Below are positions 1,416 to 22,590 of a stretch of 64,000 nt of DNA, piece by piece. The stretch's first letter is position 1. Every line of letters starts with the position of its first letter. Source of the DNA: a virus; IMG/VR virus record IMGVR_UViG_3300007512_001664, positions 62,001-126,000 of that record. One strand, given 5' to 3'. A program made the position numbers and the translations under genes. The notes under the pieces are model-generated. The model ran no database searches. It was not told the DNA's origin and saw only the letters and a program-made list of their open reading frames with translations.

Positions 1416-2396
1416 CTACCATTGGTCATTCCAATACCATCCCCATGAATCTCTTCTGCCGTAACGGACATACGCATCATATGAGCCATCATGTCCTGTA
1501 TTCCATTTGCGCATTTGTCTTGACAGTCCATGAACCCACGGGAACCATGTATATTTCTGAGCTTTGAAGTTTTCTATTTTGGTGGTGGACCTATCTTTTA
1601 GCCATTTTATGTCTACGCTGCCATATGCCCTTCTTATTCCATACTTGAAATTAGAACCATCAATGTAATATTTACCTTGCGCATTTTTTGTTCGCTCGTC
1701 CAGCCAACGCTTTGTCTCAACATGACCATCTGCGAAAGCTAATGCTGTTCCATCAATGTGATAATTACCTGGGACGTCCATGTCGTATATTTTATGGGTA
1801 GGGGCACCCTCGTTCATAACCACCCGAAAACAACCAGCGTTTATGAACTCAAATGGCATTTCTATAAAAGTAAAAATATTAGATGGATCTTCTATATCTT
1901 GTTGTTTGTGGTACACTTTCCATTCTTTATCATCTTCCACTGGCCAACCAGCCCATCCTCCTACGTGAATGTTTACGCTATAGCTCCTATGCCGGGGGAA
2001 GATCTGTCTTAACTCACCGGCCTTGTTTGTTATTCTGAGCATATCCTTATCTGCTGGGCATTTAAATACCCCAACAGAATGACCCACGTAAGGATAAAGG
2101 GGAGTCTTTTTCAGAAACTGATCTTTATTTCCATATTTAGAGATATTTAAACTACCGGGTGCCCATGTATACTTAGAACATCTCTCATACTTCCAAGAAC
2201 TTGAATATAATATTTTGTCACCGTGGTCATCGCTAAAGGTCATGTGAGCCATTTGTAGTTGTTTTTGATTACTAATGCAGGTCGCTCGTTGACTGATAGA
2301 TTTTGCCTTATTAACTGCTGGTAACAGGAGCGCTGCTAGAAGTGCGATAATAGCAATAACCACTAGTAACTCAATTAGAGTAAATCCTTTTCTCAT
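1416..2396 (-). CDS. H-X9-DG type pseudopilin-like protein 1
   Basis: Starts at [10 protein letters not shown]: a type III (prepilin-peptidase) signal with the cleavage site after Gly4, followed by a hydrophobic helix ([16 protein letters not shown]). The C-terminal half has [12 protein letters not shown], an H-X9-DG motif of the prepilin-type proteins abundant in Verrucomicrobiota, Lentisphaerota and Planctomycetota. The start at 2396 is chosen because its ATG overlaps the TGA of the upstream paralogue (ATGA), which indicates coupled translation. It ends in SWGWYWND, as the paralogue does. Expected location is the inner membrane/periplasm after processing by the host prepilin peptidase. Role in a phage unknown: pilus mimicry, adhesion or superinfection exclusion are guesses. 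Confidence 0.9.
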
Positions 2397-3385
2397 CGAT
2401 AAGGGTTCCATGTTGGATGGCTACCCCAGCTATCGTTCCAATACCAGCCCCATGAATCATACATACCTCCATCTTTTTCTCGTAGATTCCAGTCCCTATT
2501 GTATCGACCTATGCCTCCCATAACACCATACCAGCGATGATTGTTAGGATCTGGTATGATCGCTCTTTCTCTTAACCAAGCTAAGTCTCTATTATTAGGA
2601 CTGATTATCTTATCTTGATTGGTTGTTGGGTTCATTGCATCAGCTGATATATTTATTGTATCCTCTTCTAGCCATCGCTTAAACTCGACATGAGCATCAA
2701 CAAATGAAACCACTGATCCATTATTGTGATAAACACCTGGCCAATCTTGAGAGAAGAAGCTCTCACCTCCTTTGAGAGTTGGTGCTACTCTAAAGTTACC
2801 AGCATTAATTGACTGAGCTGGCATTTCAATAAAAGTAAACAACTCACTAGGGCTGTATACGTCGTCATAGGTGTGATGAACTTTAAATTGTGTATCTGAC
2901 AACCATGGCCAACCTGACCAACCACCGACAAATAGGTTTACACTATAAGAACGAGGCCTATTAACAATTTCAGGTTTAAGTGTACTAGAAATTGGTCCTG
3001 GTATACGAACAGTTGACTTATCACCTGGGCAATGATATATTCCCATACCAGCGTATGGTTTTAAAGGTGAAAAGAAAAGAGGTCGGTCGCTCTGTCCCCA
3101 TGCTCCATTGCCGCTCATACTGTCAGCGACCCATGCCCACATTCCAGTAGGTTCACCTGCCCAAGCTGATGCATAAGGAAATCTATCTTCATGATCGGCT
3201 GCAAATTCAGCGAACGCGAGATTAAGCTGTCGTTGGTTATTTATGCAAGCGGCCTGCCACCCGGTTTGTTTAGCAGAGCCTAGAGCTGGTAACAATAACG
3301 CAGCTAAAATTGCTATTATCGCTATTACTACCAGTAGTTCAATAAGTGTGAACCCCCTGGTTGCTTTCGCCGCAGGCGGGGCCAT
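2393..3385 (-). CDS. H-X9-DG type pseudopilin-like protein 2
   Basis: A 330-residue paralogue of the downstream gene. The N-terminus is [11 protein letters not shown] then [12 protein letters not shown], a prepilin-type signal with cleavage expected after Gly11. The C-terminal motif is [12 protein letters not shown], that is H-X9-DG with DG changed to DA. Both proteins share RSYSVN, VGGW.GWP, FTFIEMP and the C-terminal SWGWYWND, so they arose by tandem duplication or were acquired together. The 5' end looks more GC-rich (CCGCAGGCGGGG) than its surroundings, hinting at recent transfer from a bacterium. A full T4-type TATAAATA is 8 nt upstream of the ATG. Confidence 0.9.
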
Positions 3386-7970: not shown

Positions 7971-7998
7971 TTGCAATTTAAAAAGATTATACTATAAT
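7971..7998 (+). promoter_or_regulatory. Sigma70-like promoter, TTGCAA-N16-TATAAT
   Basis: Seven nt from the -10 element to ATG 8006; decides that start over ATG 7997, which lies within the -10 itself. Confidence 0.65.
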
Positions 7999-8005
7999 GA
8001 ATGAC

Positions 8006-8206
8006 ATGAGCTTGGAGCGAAGAGTATTTATTTGTTTTGTTATTGTGGTCGCATTTTTTTGTAGTGGGTGTTCGTCAACTAAATGGAAATGGTTACCACA
8101 AGAACCATATATAGACGACCAACGCAGAAGCGAGTATTCTCGACTAGATAAAGACCGTAAAGAAGTTGGTGGTGTTCAAATAACTGTATTAAAAGCGAGT
8201 TTCTAA
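8006..8206 (+). CDS. Small lipoprotein
   Basis: 66 residues: MSLERR, a hydrophobic stretch (VFICFVIVVAFFCSG) and a lipobox-like S-G-C-S-S give a type II signal with lipidation on the Cys. The mature part is ~45 charged residues. Spanins and other phage lipoproteins look like this, but no partner inner-membrane spanin is visible. The next gene starts immediately after the stop, so they are one operon with the HMA protein. Confidence 0.65.
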   Translation: MSLERRVFICFVIVVAFFCSGCSSTKWKWLPQEPYIDDQRRSEYSRLDKDRKEVGGVQITVLKASF

Positions 8207-17063: not shown

Positions 17064-18383
17064 ATGAGCTTCGAACCATTCATACAAAATAGAAGAGGAT
17101 TCTTATCTACATTAGCTAAAGGTATAGGAGTACTTGCTAGTCCAGATGCAGTAACAAATGTAGCTAAAGCAGCAGGAAGATCTACACCTAACCAACCTCT
17201 TAAAGCAGGTCTCGGTCATGTATATAGAGCACTCTTAAAAACTACTGGAGACTATCATGAGTATTCGCCGGGATTCAGTATTAAGCAAAGAGAGCATATA
17301 ACTCAGATAGCTATGGCCGCTCTACATAAAGTAGAAAAAGAGGATTGGTCAGATGAAGTTGTAGGCTTTAAGGATATGGTAGGTCACTTTCAATATTATT
17401 TTGATGAAGGAGAATCATTTGAAGATGCGTACACTGCGTTTGAAGATGATAATATGTTTGATATATATGATCTCGTAAAGAAATACGCATATGATTTAAG
17501 AACTGTCGGTTCAGTTGACACAAAAGATCTAACAGATCGTATGGTAAGAGAAATTTCAGATGGAAATGGGTTCGATGATTTTTGGGATACGCTGGCGATG
17601 AAACATGGTCCTAGAGAGCCCGGTGAACAAAGACCAGACGATAGAGATTATTTAGATAAAGATTACGCACAGGGCCCTCATATGAATAGCGCGCAAGTAA
17701 GCTTTAAAGATTTCCACAACCTTAACGAAGCATTCGATAAACCTTATTCATTTAATGTAGATAGCAGCGAGTACCCTCTAACAGTCTATAACTTTACAGT
17801 AGACGACGTCGACGATCCATATACCGTACAAGCCGTATTCGATCCAGTAGATACATTAGATCAATTTATAGAACCAGAGAGAGATAGCGCTGGTATCGCA
17901 AAGCAAGACCACCGCCAAGCGGTTAAACAGGCTGATCGATACATAGCATTTAAGTATCCCAGCGCTATTAAACCAGAATACGCTAAAGTTATTGAATATG
18001 GATTTTCAGATAAAGGATCTGGATCAATCGAGAAAACCGGGAAAGGCGGCCATAGTGCTACTCGTGTCATTGGTACTGTCATACAAATAGCTCAGCATTA
18101 TATGATTACCAGAGAGCCCAAAGTCTTACTCTTTACTGGCGCTAAAGATGAGAATAGAGGCCCTATCTATACTAAACTAACTCACTTGGCATTCAGATCT
18201 CTTAAAGATGGTGCACTGTCTGGTTATAACTACTTCATAGATGACCACCTTAAGGGAGATGTAAGATTTTGGATCTATAAAGAAAAGGATATACCTTACC
18301 TCGGTGACGAGAACTTCCAGGAATTCTTAACTAATGATCGATGGCATCAGCAAAACCCTGGCCTTGATAATGTATACGCATAA
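17064..18383 (+). CDS. Two-part putative injected protein with twin-arginine-like N-terminus
   Basis: 439 residues. Residues 1-9 (MSFEPFIQN) resemble the aromatic leader, and R10-R11-G-F-L-S-T-L-A-K-G-I-G-V-L-A follows the Tat pattern RR-x-F-L plus a hydrophobic core. Residues ~40-205 are acidic and unrecognised. At ~213-225 V-S-F-K-D-F-H-N-L-N-E-A-F restarts a T4-type capsid-targeting leader, and from there to the end is a separate globular domain (GHSATRVIGTVIQIAQ, then LLFTGAKDENRGPIYTKL) that looks like a stand-alone phage protein. The gene therefore appears to be a fusion of two leader-bearing proteins. Enzymatic role unknown. Confidence 0.6.
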   Translation: MSFEPFIQNRRGFLSTLAKGIGVLASPDAVTNVAKAAGRSTPNQPLKAGLGHVYRALLKTTGDYHEYSPGFSIKQREHITQIAMAALHKVEKEDWSDEVVGFKDMVGHFQYYFDEGESFEDAYTAFEDDNMFDIYDLVKKYAYDLRTVGSVDTKDLTDRMVREISDGNGFDDFWDTLAMKHGPREPGEQRPDDRDYLDKDYAQGPHMNSAQVSFKDFHNLNEAFDKPYSFNVDSSEYPLTVYNFTVDDVDDPYTVQAVFDPVDTLDQFIEPERDSAGIAKQDHRQAVKQADRYIAFKYPSAIKPEYAKVIEYGFSDKGSGSIEKTGKGGHSATRVIGTVIQIAQHYMITREPKVLLFTGAKDENRGPIYTKLTHLAFRSLKDGALSGYNYFIDDHLKGDVRFWIYKEKDIPYLGDENFQEFLTNDRWHQQNPGLDNVYA

Positions 18384-18968
18384 ATGATACCTTTTAAACA
18401 GTATATTGCTGAGGCAAATCCTAAGTCTCTCATAGTTGTTGATGTTCAACCAGTCTATACTCATCTGATGCAAGATGAAGTAACTGCGATAACAGAGTTC
18501 ATAAACACAAAAGCTGAGAGAGTGCTAGCATATTTTAACGGTGAAGATGCTGGTGAGAGAGATACTTTAGAAGATGTTAAGCAGTGGTACCTTGATAATG
18601 GACTAGAGGAAGAGAGCTTAGCTAAGATAAACTTCCAAGAGAAAACATATGCATACCTTAGAGGGTGGATGGACGATGTGGAGGAGAGGGATATTATAAA
18701 GGTAGTCAGATATATGGTGACTAATAGAATACAACAGTCTGACCAGATAGGTAATAGTGCTATAGTTGAATTATTAGGAATAGATGTAGCTAGGGAAGTT
18801 GATGATATTGATCCTATATACATTCCTGATATTGATCTTTCATTAATTAAACAGTATAACAAATCGTATATTGGTGGTGGAGGGCGCCATGAATGTTTAA
18901 AAGAAATTACTCTTATGATGAATGCATTCAATATTAAATACAAATTAATCAACAATTTCATATATTAA
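18384..18968 (+). CDS. Isochorismatase-like protein with capsid-targeting-like leader
   Basis: 194 residues. The leader MIPFKQYIAEA closely matches the T4 internal-protein leader, with the protease site I-A-E|A. SLIVVDVQPVY then gives the family's first catalytic Asp (V-D-x-Q), and the C-terminal G-G-G-G-R-H-E-C-L-K-E-I places a Cys where isochorismatase-like hydrolases carry the nucleophile. The family hydrolyses small amides or vinyl ethers, but many phage members have no known substrate. Translated directly after the 17064 gene. Confidence 0.65.
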   Translation: MIPFKQYIAEANPKSLIVVDVQPVYTHLMQDEVTAITEFINTKAERVLAYFNGEDAGERDTLEDVKQWYLDNGLEEESLAKINFQEKTYAYLRGWMDDVEERDIIKVVRYMVTNRIQQSDQIGNSAIVELLGIDVAREVDDIDPIYIPDIDLSLIKQYNKSYIGGGGRHECLKEITLMMNAFNIKYKLINNFIY

Positions 18969-19171: not shown

Positions 19172-19768
19172 GTGAAGTCATTTATCGATTTTATTAACGA
19201 GGCAGGAAAGTTTCCTACAGTTACATTAACTCAACCGTATTCGCAATCGCGTCCCGGAGCAGGAAAGCGGTTCCGTAATAAGAAAGACCCCAAAAGAGCC
19301 AATCAACAACAAGCTCTAAGAGATCAAGGCTATCGCTGGGATAAAGAAAAGAAAAAATGGGTTAAAGGCACTGTTCCTGTCAGTGCATCAACCGTGGAGT
19401 CTAAACAAGCCAAGTACATTGAAGAAGCCAAAAGAGGTCGTGAGAGTTATGAGACACGTAACCCAGATTTTGTTGATGCTTTATTAGATATTTTTTCTGC
19501 CCTCCAAGATCGAAACATAGAAAAAGGAATGACGTTAAATCGTTTTACAAATCAAGACGTTATTAAACTAATCGATGATCATGAAGTTTATGGTATTAAT
19601 GGCACTAATCCATGGCCTTCACAACATAAGGAGCGTTATATATCTAATCTTCGTCGTCTACTTGGAGTTGAAACACCCGGAAGAAAGCAAAGAAAAGATA
19701 CAGGAAAAGAGCAGGGTACTCATGATACAGGTGATGAATGGTCAGATTGGCTTAAACCGGAAGCATGA
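19172..19768 (+). CDS. Putative virion-internal protein with capsid-targeting leader
   Basis: 198 residues, GTG start fixed by the TAAATA 5 nt upstream. MKSFIDFINEAGKF is the clearest T4-like leader in the window, with the I-N-E|A protease site. Then a basic Gln/Lys/Arg region includes LRDQGYRWDKEKKKWVK, a short W-containing motif found in phage proteins, and an all-helical second half follows. The mature protein is strongly basic, fitting co-packaging with DNA. ATGA overlap with the next gene. Confidence 0.6.
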   Translation: MKSFIDFINEAGKFPTVTLTQPYSQSRPGAGKRFRNKKDPKRANQQQALRDQGYRWDKEKKKWVKGTVPVSASTVESKQAKYIEEAKRGRESYETRNPDFVDALLDIFSALQDRNIEKGMTLNRFTNQDVIKLIDDHEVYGINGTNPWPSQHKERYISNLRRLLGVETPGRKQRKDTGKEQGTHDTGDEWSDWLKPEA

Positions 19769-21141
19769 GAGATACAGAAGCACAACTAATTTTTGAGACT
19801 TACGTAGAAGCAAAGGATGTAAGTCGACGAGATTTCTTTAAGCTATTAGGTAGAGGTGCTGCAACAGTCGCGACAGTTCCTTGGACTAAACTACTATCAG
19901 CTCCTAAGTTAGCTGCAGCAGTCACAGCACCATTTAAGATTGGTGCAGGTACTATACTTAATCCTCAGGCTCTGCATTGGTACTACGTTCGTAAGTTTGT
20001 TAACAAAGCAGAGGAAAGCGGTCTCACTCCAGTAGATGTAACAGATGAAAGGCATTACGAGGACCCAGTCGACGAGATATCTTTTGAAGCATTTGAGTGG
20101 GTTTCCAAGAATGTAATTAATATGTATGTTGATGATCGAGATCATGCTGTAGATAGAGAAGGAGACACGATAGCACCCACTATGGCTGAGTTGATCAATG
20201 ATCACGGATGGGATGAAGAGCATTTTATAGATGATCCTAATTTTCCGGAATGGGCGAAACCTCTTCTCACTAAAGATGAAGAAGATATGACTGATGAAGA
20301 GGAAGAAAAATATCAGAACTTAATGAATTCAAAGTGGTTTGATAAGCAGATGGTGATTAACTGGGATGGTGAGCAGGGCCATGGAGCTGATGAAGAGGTA
20401 GAAGAAATGCTAAGAAATTGGACTGGGTGGCATCACAAGTCGCCAGGGTCAGGTGATGTCGGGGGCCCCCTTCATGGTGATGAACTTATTACTACTGTCT
20501 TTGATTACATTGTAGATCTCAATCGCAAACGTAATGATGAGGGAAAGTTTATGGACATTAATGAGATAATGAAGATGGACTTTAAACAAGAGTTCTTACC
20601 TGGTGTTGTAAAGTATGCGAGAGAGCTGGCTGTAGCTCGATCAACTCGGTTGACAGGAAACCAACAGAGACAAGCAGGGCAAGATTTTCAAAAAGCTAAA
20701 GACGAGCTACAAAAAGACTACCTACCTAAAAGACCAGGCCAACCAGCTGAGTGGGATGATGTACATCCGGATGTTGAATGGTGGCACGAAGGTGATTTTA
20801 AATGGTGGGAGCGTCGGTTTGATGATGATGTTATTAATAGTGATAAGATCGAACAATATAAGGTTTTTGCTGATAAAATAATACAGAATCCTTTCGAAGA
20901 CGGCTTACTGTGGCCAACCACTGGGGAACCAGCTTATAGCCCTGAAGAAAGCAAAGCGATAATTAAAAAACTTAAACAAGAAGCACATGATTGGTTGAAA
21001 TGGTATGAGATGACAAAGGATAGTAGAAAGCCTAATCAAGCACATATCAAACATCCATATGGAGTAGGTAGACCTCAGAGCGGTTTACAAACAGCTAGTA
21101 CTAAGCCTACATTTAAACAGTTCTTTTTAATAAATAATTAA
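19765..21141 (+). CDS. Putative injected protein: AQLI leader plus Tat-type signal
   Basis: 458 residues. The type-B leader M-R-D-T-E-A-Q-L-I-F-E-T has a candidate cleavage site I-F-E|T. V-S-R-R-D-F-F-K-L-L-G-R-G-A-A-T-V-A follows at ~24-41: an exact Tat consensus S-R-R-x-F-[FL]-K with hydrophobic core, then SAPKLAAAVTA as a possible signal-peptidase site. The rest (~60-430) is acidic and Trp-rich (W-W-H-E-G-D-F-K-W-W-E), unrecognised. The last residues PTFKQFFLINN resemble the aromatic leader. No enzyme family visible. Confidence 0.6.
   Translation: MRDTEAQLIFETYVEAKDVSRRDFFKLLGRGAATVATVPWTKLLSAPKLAAAVTAPFKIGAGTILNPQALHWYYVRKFVNKAEESGLTPVDVTDERHYEDPVDEISFEAFEWVSKNVINMYVDDRDHAVDREGDTIAPTMAELINDHGWDEEHFIDDPNFPEWAKPLLTKDEEDMTDEEEEKYQNLMNSKWFDKQMVINWDGEQGHGADEEVEEMLRNWTGWHHKSPGSGDVGGPLHGDELITTVFDYIVDLNRKRNDEGKFMDINEIMKMDFKQEFLPGVVKYARELAVARSTRLTGNQQRQAGQDFQKAKDELQKDYLPKRPGQPAEWDDVHPDVEWWHEGDFKWWERRFDDDVINSDKIEQYKVFADKIIQNPFEDGLLWPTTGEPAYSPEESKAIIKKLKQEAHDWLKWYEMTKDSRKPNQAHIKHPYGVGRPQSGLQTASTKPTFKQFFLINN
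21131..21136 (+). promoter_or_regulatory. Late-type promoter element (TAAATA)
   Basis: 6 nt before ATG 21143. Confidence 0.55.
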
Positions 21142-21474: not shown

Positions 21475-22269
21475 ATGAAGTATGATACAGAAGCACAATT
21501 AATTTGGGAAGCCGCGCAAAAGAAGAGGTCACCTGTTGAAGAAGGTAAACCACACAATTGCGCTACACACGTAGAGCATTCTAAGTGGGGTAAAGGTGAA
21601 TGTATTTCAGAGAGCCATGCTGAACCAGATGAAAATGGTAATGTAGCCTGGTATAATGTTGTATTTGAACACGGCACTGAGACAGTCAATACTGCTGATG
21701 TTAAAGTGCTTAAATCTAGTCATCATATGCACGCTAGTCATAATCCTATTAAAATTAGTAAAAATCGAGGTGAATATGCTTTGCGAATGAGAGCTGATGG
21801 ATGGCAACGTTGTCCGCATAATTGTATTCCAGATGATGGTAATCCTCCTACATATCGACATGTCGATGGTGTGCCTTGTCCAGAGTGTGAAGGAAAAGGA
21901 TATGTTACTTCAGACCATATAAAATCTACCGATAGGCCAGTGCAAGTGCCACCAAACCCCAAAACCGATGAGTTCGGTCGAGCTAAAGGTGATATTGGCC
22001 ATATGTATGCTTCTACTAAATCAGATCCAAGTAAATTAACAGAAGCAAGCCCAGATGATAATTTTGCCGCTAGCCAGTCAATGATATCAGCAATATATAA
22101 AGAAATTGATGAGTATATGACTCGAGCAGGAGCCGAGGATTTAAAAGATAACGTACTTGCTATTGTTAAGCAATATTTGGAGGGGCCGATAATATCGACT
22201 CCACCTAGCAGTAGCGATTACAGTGGCAAGGCAATTGCAAATCCTTATACACCTTACCCGACAGGATAA
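21475..22269 (+). CDS. AQLI-leader protein with Tudor/SH3-like and zinc-knuckle segments
   Basis: 264 residues. Leader M-K-Y-D-T-E-A-Q-L-I-W-E-A with I-W-E|A. Residues ~33-80 (H-S-K-W-G-K-G-E-C ... W-Y-N-V-V-F-E-H-G) follow the pattern of the SH3/Tudor-like end of UvrD/PcrA helicases. RCPHNC ... CPECEGKGYV is a four-Cys knuckle like those of DnaJ. SDPSKLTEAS at ~178 is a second candidate protease site. The C-terminus (KEIDEYMT...EDLK.NVLAIVKQYL) is shared with the 22860 product. A modular protein of unknown role. Confidence 0.6.
   Translation: MKYDTEAQLIWEAAQKKRSPVEEGKPHNCATHVEHSKWGKGECISESHAEPDENGNVAWYNVVFEHGTETVNTADVKVLKSSHHMHASHNPIKISKNRGEYALRMRADGWQRCPHNCIPDDGNPPTYRHVDGVPCPECEGKGYVTSDHIKSTDRPVQVPPNPKTDEFGRAKGDIGHMYASTKSDPSKLTEASPDDNFAASQSMISAIYKEIDEYMTRAGAEDLKDNVLAIVKQYLEGPIISTPPSSSDYSGKAIANPYTPYPTG
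22099..22179 (+). repeat. Duplicated KEIDEYM module, copy 1
   Basis: Encodes KEIDEYMT ... EDLK.NVLAI.KQYL; closely similar DNA at 22965-23057. Confidence 0.75.
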
Positions 22270-22274
22270 TAGCC

Positions 22275-22589
22275 ATGAAAGATAAAGACGCACAACTAAT
22301 GATGGAAGCCTTACAAAAGCAAAAAGTAAATGAAGCTGACTATTATGAAGATGACAATAGTACTGACACATATTTACAGTGGAAACTCGCAGAAGACAGA
22401 TGGCATGAAAAATTAGCTGACTTAGAACCTCTTGATGAGCTTGCAGCGCGCTATGGTGGTGAAGATATTAATCCAGCTGGTGGTAACATAAAGGGTGGTA
22501 ATATCATTGATTGGCTAGCTAAACAGATCAACCAACCAGGTTCGGACTTTGTTGGTTATTTTGAGCAGCAACTTATGAAAGAGCAATAG
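22275..22589 (+). CDS. Small AQLM-leader protein
   Basis: 104 residues: leader M-K-D-K-D-A-Q-L-M-M-E-A-L-Q-K-Q-K-V-N-E, then an acidic region. The second half (DELAARYGGEDINPAGG, NIIDWLAKQIN) is helical. No known family. The first 45 nt are nearly identical to the starts of the 22591, 22860, 23354 and 23786 genes. One-nt spacing to the next gene. Confidence 0.6.
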   Translation: MKDKDAQLMMEALQKQKVNEADYYEDDNSTDTYLQWKLAEDRWHEKLADLEPLDELAARYGGEDINPAGGNIKGGNIIDWLAKQINQPGSDFVGYFEQQLMKEQ

Positions 22590-22590
22590 T

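Follow-up and report, generated by a model that had tools for sequence, protein, structure and literature searches.

The 458-residue protein encoded at positions 19765–21141 (plus strand) of a T4-like phage begins with a predicted head-packaging leader, behind which lies a twin-arginine (RR) block resembling those of Tat substrates. We tentatively interpret it as a T4-type internal head protein whose leader would be cut and whose RR block would then serve the host Tat system. Coordinates without a contig handle refer to the window, the whole stretch of 64,000 nucleotides analysed here (bases 62001–126000 of a 200,819-base viral record). Judged by its sequence, this record is a T4-like myovirus; the same genome holds tail sheath and tube genes, a gp23 major capsid protein (G000:C1:9064–10230; 298 bits) and a homologue of the gp21-type S77 prohead protease (L006:6940–7602, match at G000:C1:7015–7467; PF03420, 104 bits versus a cut-off of 27). 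The start of the 458-residue ORF is credible, as its ATG shares the tetranucleotide ATGA with the stop of the upstream gene and is preceded by GGAAG. The product is cysteine-free (pI 4.9, 53 kDa) and has no Pfam, NCBIfam or PDB relative and a single weak PHROG match, and a single-sequence AlphaFold2 model of it (pLDDT 38.8) was uninformative either way. Local RNA structure around the gene is unremarkable, and promoter- and terminator-like sites at the locus are no more frequent than chance. The extreme C-terminus, TFKQFFLINN (21106–21138), is itself leader-like (compare FKQYIAE and FIDFINE).

The N-terminus of the protein reads MRDTEAQLIFE↓ (arrows mark predicted cuts), followed by TYVEAKDVSRRDFFKLLGRGAATVATVPWTKLLSAPKLAAA in one excerpt and by TYVEAKDVSRRDFFKLLGRGAATVATVPWTKLLSAPKLAAAVTAPF in a second one. 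The leader (19765–19797, plus strand) ends, as originally predicted, in L-I-F-E↓T; its last residue is at position 11 (nucleotide 19797), and a gp21-type cut is expected after E11. T4-type leaders are recognised by an L/I-x-E cleavage motif within about 10–19 N-terminal residues, and here I-F-E occupies residues 9–11. Leaders of the same type are found on eight ORFs (19765, 21475, 22275, 22591, 22860, 23354, 23786 and L007:14761) that are otherwise unrelated and predicted to encode head cargo. Counted without the ORF at 22860–23357, seven ORFs carry this leader type versus 0.0 per genome in shuffled N-termini, whereas the generic rule [LI]xE↓[AT] by itself gives 8 observed versus 1.8 expected; the common sequence is therefore what is decisive for the leader, and the generic rule is less telling. 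A published review states that T4 gp21 cuts by the L/I-x-E rule and that such leaders target proteins (PMC9026906), and the presence of a gp21-type protease in the same phage is what is expected of T4-type leader proteins. The module shared by unrelated ORFs, the L/I-x-E fit and the gp21 and gp23 genes together support the proposed capsid-targeting role. Since the leader sequence is shared and L-I-F-E↓T fits the gp21 rule, the predicted packaging and cleavage of the 458-residue protein are very likely, and its first 11 residues can be assigned as a packaging leader with high confidence from sequence. The six ORFs 21475, 22275, 22591, 22860, 23354 and 23786 (21475–24052, plus strand) have neither an RR pair nor a hydrophobic segment behind the leader, and because these neighbours share the leader without an export signal, its presence on the 458-residue protein points to packaging.

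A second style of leader, MKSFIDFINE↓A, resembles the leaders of the T4 internal proteins and is found on the two ORFs at 18384 and 19172. These encode a 194-residue protein with the leader MIPFKQYIAE↓A (18384–18968, plus strand) and a 198-residue protein with the leader MKSFIDFINE↓A (19172–19768, plus strand), the latter conserved in the close relative L166. A homologue of ribosomal protein S21 (PF01165; 18969–19163) lies within this cluster of leader proteins and is kept in the relative (L166:9895–10089).

The twin-arginine motif of the 458-residue protein, SRRDFFK, lies at residues 20–26 (19822–19842, plus strand). The original prediction had placed it at about residues 24–41, but the stretch it quoted spans residues 20–36; it had also called the motif an exact Tat consensus, and while SRRDFFK is indeed present, its second F stands at the position of L in the consensus S/T-R-R-x-F-L-K (PMC6085387, PMC5539426). 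This is one conservative change, and FdnG, a validated Pseudomonas Tat signal, likewise has RRQFFK (PMC6085387). With expectations derived from the shuffled N-termini of 263 ORFs, the strict pattern [ST]RRxF[LF]K was observed once in the first 45 residues versus 0.001 expected, and the looser RRxF[LFIVM] four times versus 0.28 expected (P(≥3) = 0.0025). The four carriers of the looser motif are the 458-residue protein, a 439-residue sister protein, a DUF1552 gene and the ORF at 7997–8206, which resembles a Sec lipoprotein. We also scored RR sites with a position-specific matrix (PSSM) derived from Pseudomonas Tat signals with experimental validation (n = 25; PMC6085387). When the 525 RR dipeptides encoded in ORFs of the phage and its relatives were ranked, SRRDFFK came first with 18.7 bits, followed by the DUF1552 gene at 16.3 and the next site at 11.4; validated signals on the same matrix have a median of 15.5 and a maximum of 22.7. 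The RR motif of the 458-residue protein is not a product of chance.

The hydrophobic core behind the motif is weak. A Tat h-region is expected to be an uncharged, moderately hydrophobic stretch of at least 12–13 residues. The core here, which the original prediction implied, is substandard, and R30 splits it: the segment GAATVATVPWT (residues 31–41; 19855–19887, plus strand) follows R30 and is ended by K42, so that the longest uncharged run is 11 residues versus a minimum of 12 in validated signals, and the peak 13-residue hydropathy is 1.01 versus a validated minimum of 1.37. The validated set used here comprised 32 signals, with two phospholipase C signals deliberately omitted, and an apparent uncharged run of 3 within it is an artefact of a later RR having been picked. 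Curated Tat models gave matches below their thresholds: TIGR01409 (NCBIfam) scored 15.3 bits, just short of its cut-off of 16.7 (E 0.019 against 18,950 models, about 1e-6 for TIGR01409 alone), and PF10518 scored 9.1 versus a cut-off of 22.7, with E. coli HyaA itself at 11.7. TIGR02811 scored 15.6 bits. The TIGR01409 match also counts in favour of a Tat signal. A candidate signal-peptidase site, K-L-A-A-A↓V (residues 48–52; 19906–19920, plus strand), can be read from the letters, and its A50-A51-A52↓V53 sits in a region that is Ala-rich anyway. The motif and the length of the n-region are thus those of a Tat signal and the h-region is not, and we put the likelihood of the RR block functioning as a Tat signal only a little short of even.

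A second RR protein behind a leader-like stretch is encoded near the 458-residue gene. This 439-residue sister (17064–18383, plus strand) begins MSFEPFIQNRRGFLSTLAKGIGVLASP and consists, in order, of the leader-like MSFEPFIQ, the RR block NRRGFLSTLAKGIGVLASP (residues 9–38; 17088–17177, plus strand), an unknown module of about 170 residues, an internal leader and a C-terminal domain. Its best local alignment with the 458-residue protein covers exactly the leader and RR block (E 0.018). The internal leader, VSFKDFHNLNE (residues 212–222; 17697–17729, plus strand), corresponds to the N-terminus of stand-alone relatives of the C-terminal domain, found in L001, L002 and L166 (n = 3), which start directly with a leader and without an RR block: MKFKDFYNLNE↓A at L001:7420, MNFKNYHTLSE↓A at L166:9092 and MNKDTQLIFE↓TYVNE↓A in L002. 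As these three have no RR block, this phage is the only one of the four compared in which the RR module has been added. Since the fusion still contains the relatives' leader, as VSFKDFHNLNE↓A, the protease may cut at the internal L-N-E↓A site and so split the two halves of the protein. A fold search with a low-confidence model of the 439-residue protein gave weak acetyltransferase and methyltransferase matches, with nothing at E ≤ 0.001, and an acetyltransferase (GNAT) type for the C-terminal domain is a weakly suggested possibility.

The sister protein bears on what we consider the strongest alternative, namely that the leader packages the protein and the RR block, rather than serving as a Tat signal, forms a basic helix, amphipathic in part, for attachment to the head core, DNA or membrane, its motif having arisen by convergence. 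The substandard core of the 458-residue protein would be explained by such a helix, as would the block of the sister, which K19 likewise interrupts at the same spacing and whose uncharged run is 8, and the fact that the sister's relatives manage without the block altogether. Against it, the motif is far beyond chance and fits Tat models better than those of other families, and a helix that binds the core gives no reason for conformity to S-R-R-x-F-x-K. We consider this alternative quite possible, if short of probable.

No homologue of the 458-residue protein turned up among phages and viral contigs, in bacterial genomes or in 60 related viral records, and the N-terminal 67 residues queried alone against viral contigs gave no match. 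Among the related phage sequence surveyed, which included two records above 200 kb, we saw no protein combining a leader with an RR block, a result that weighs against the preferred interpretation. The contig of L166, which is 87% identical at the 14940 gene, stops within its homologue of the 19172 gene, a few hundred bases short of the expected start of the 458-residue gene.

Support for the combination of a leader with an export signal came independently from lysozymes of this phage and its relatives, where the signal resembles the Sec type. The sole lysozyme-family match of this phage, a LysM and lysozyme protein (L093:12591–13451; G000:C1:32591–33451), begins MTFKQLSDCNEVFLRE↓GPWSSRAAALGLGAASLFGGPGEVQA↓K. 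Its 17 relatives, most about 59% identical, keep the leader, the VQA↓K and the hydrophobic run even as residues of the core vary, and VQA↓K is found in the two related lysozyme subfamilies. Further lysozymes (L001:1683–2327, and L101:11587–12411 on the minus strand) follow the same plan with other leaders, that of the L101 protein being MNKDNYLIYE↓A; a search with the L001 lysozyme gave matches in phages S-H25 and UP87. The segments behind the leaders have uncharged runs of 16–22 and look like good Sec-type signals, and it would be reasonable for a head-packaged murein enzyme to carry an export signal. The L093 lysozyme could also simply be an endolysin, with the leader serving another role. 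These lysozymes possibly outweigh the 458-residue protein in importance, and they keep the idea testable should the Tat reading of that protein fail.

The DUF1552 (HXXSHH) gene with an N-terminal RR signal lies at L008:2970–4214 (G000:C1:128970–130214). Bacterial DUF1552 homologues likewise start with RR signals, which speaks for the preferred interpretation; a search of the phage collection found no relative. Two genes in the window (1416–2411 and 2393–3385, minus strand) have prepilin-type N-termini with weak matches to Verru_Chthon cassette proteins, and a comparable gene occurs in a related phage of 229 kb (L124:12880–13614, minus strand). The DUF1552 gene and the two prepilin-like genes suggest a Planctomycetota/Verrucomicrobiota host, and this host remains inferred because a bacterial genome scan returned no DUF1552 relatives.

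For the 458-residue protein we infer four steps: it would be packaged, cleaved, ejected into the cytoplasm and recognised by Tat. The protein would be packed in the head via its 11-residue leader, which the gp21-type protease very probably cuts after L-I-F-E; the RR block would most likely take it to or across the cytoplasmic membrane via the host Tat system, whether in the cell that makes it or, following ejection, in a new host. The latter order, in which virion delivery would be followed by Tat export, was the core of the original prediction, which held that leader removal exposes the RR pair. Such exposure is unneeded: 2–36 residues precede the RR in validated Tat signals, so leader removal is not required for Tat recognition, and the TIGR01409 score is 15.5 without the leader, close to that with it. 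The sequential use of the two elements is best regarded as unlikely, and we hold in similarly low expectation the broader scheme of cargo with two addresses, in which a leader removed by the protease would precede a Tat-like signal (458- and 439-residue proteins) or a Sec-like one (lysozymes) and the new host would export the injected proteins to its periplasm as infection begins.

Were the Tat signal instead to work solely in the producing cell, the newly made protein would be either packaged or exported late in infection, and delivery by the virion would be beside the point. The 20 residues that precede the RR here, leader included, fall within the tolerated range and need not block export, and the unchanged Tat model score is equally compatible with such a course. 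The leader is also borne by neighbours that lack an export signal, which argues against this alternative, and we judge it improbable. A functionless chance motif in a fast-evolving accessory protein would suit the lack of relatives in the collections searched, but with the strict motif so rarely expected per genome and a second RR block of the same spacing nearby, it is the least probable explanation of all.

If virion delivery does lead on to export, a tailed phage could get folded proteins into the periplasm of a newly infected cell ahead of all phage gene expression. Two cheap N-terminal labels used in series would extend the reach of virion-delivered effectors past the cytoplasm.

Among known systems, T7 gp16 is an internal muralytic ejection protein that traverses the envelope in the course of ejection, with no need of an export signal. 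It is alike in being a virion-internal protein that acts beyond the cytoplasm; the lysozymes described here carry a leader and a Sec-like signal. The lysis system gp22/gp25 of phage Mu includes a lysis protein with a twin-arginine motif, for which a possible hijack of part of the Tat machinery is discussed (PMC9239132), and differs in that its protein is produced in the infected cell with reversed topology and no virion delivery. Our search of the literature linking twin-arginine signals with prohead proteases or internal head proteins, which covered full texts in part, found no virion-delivered Tat substrate, and because of that partial coverage novelty is only weakly evidenced. The Tat signals of Pseudomonas aeruginosa (34 validated; PMC6085387) are alike in S-R-R-x-F-x-K and n-region length, and the 458-residue protein has a candidate AxA site; compared with bacterial Tat signals, the core of this protein is shorter and less hydrophobic and contains an internal arginine, and the protein scores under the curated model cut-offs. 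T4 IPI, IPII, IPIII and Alt share with it a short leader ending in L/I-x-E, placed on unrelated proteins and cut by gp21; whereas the available part of the source on T4 internal proteins describes no second targeting block, the 458-residue protein carries a Tat-like RR block after its leader.
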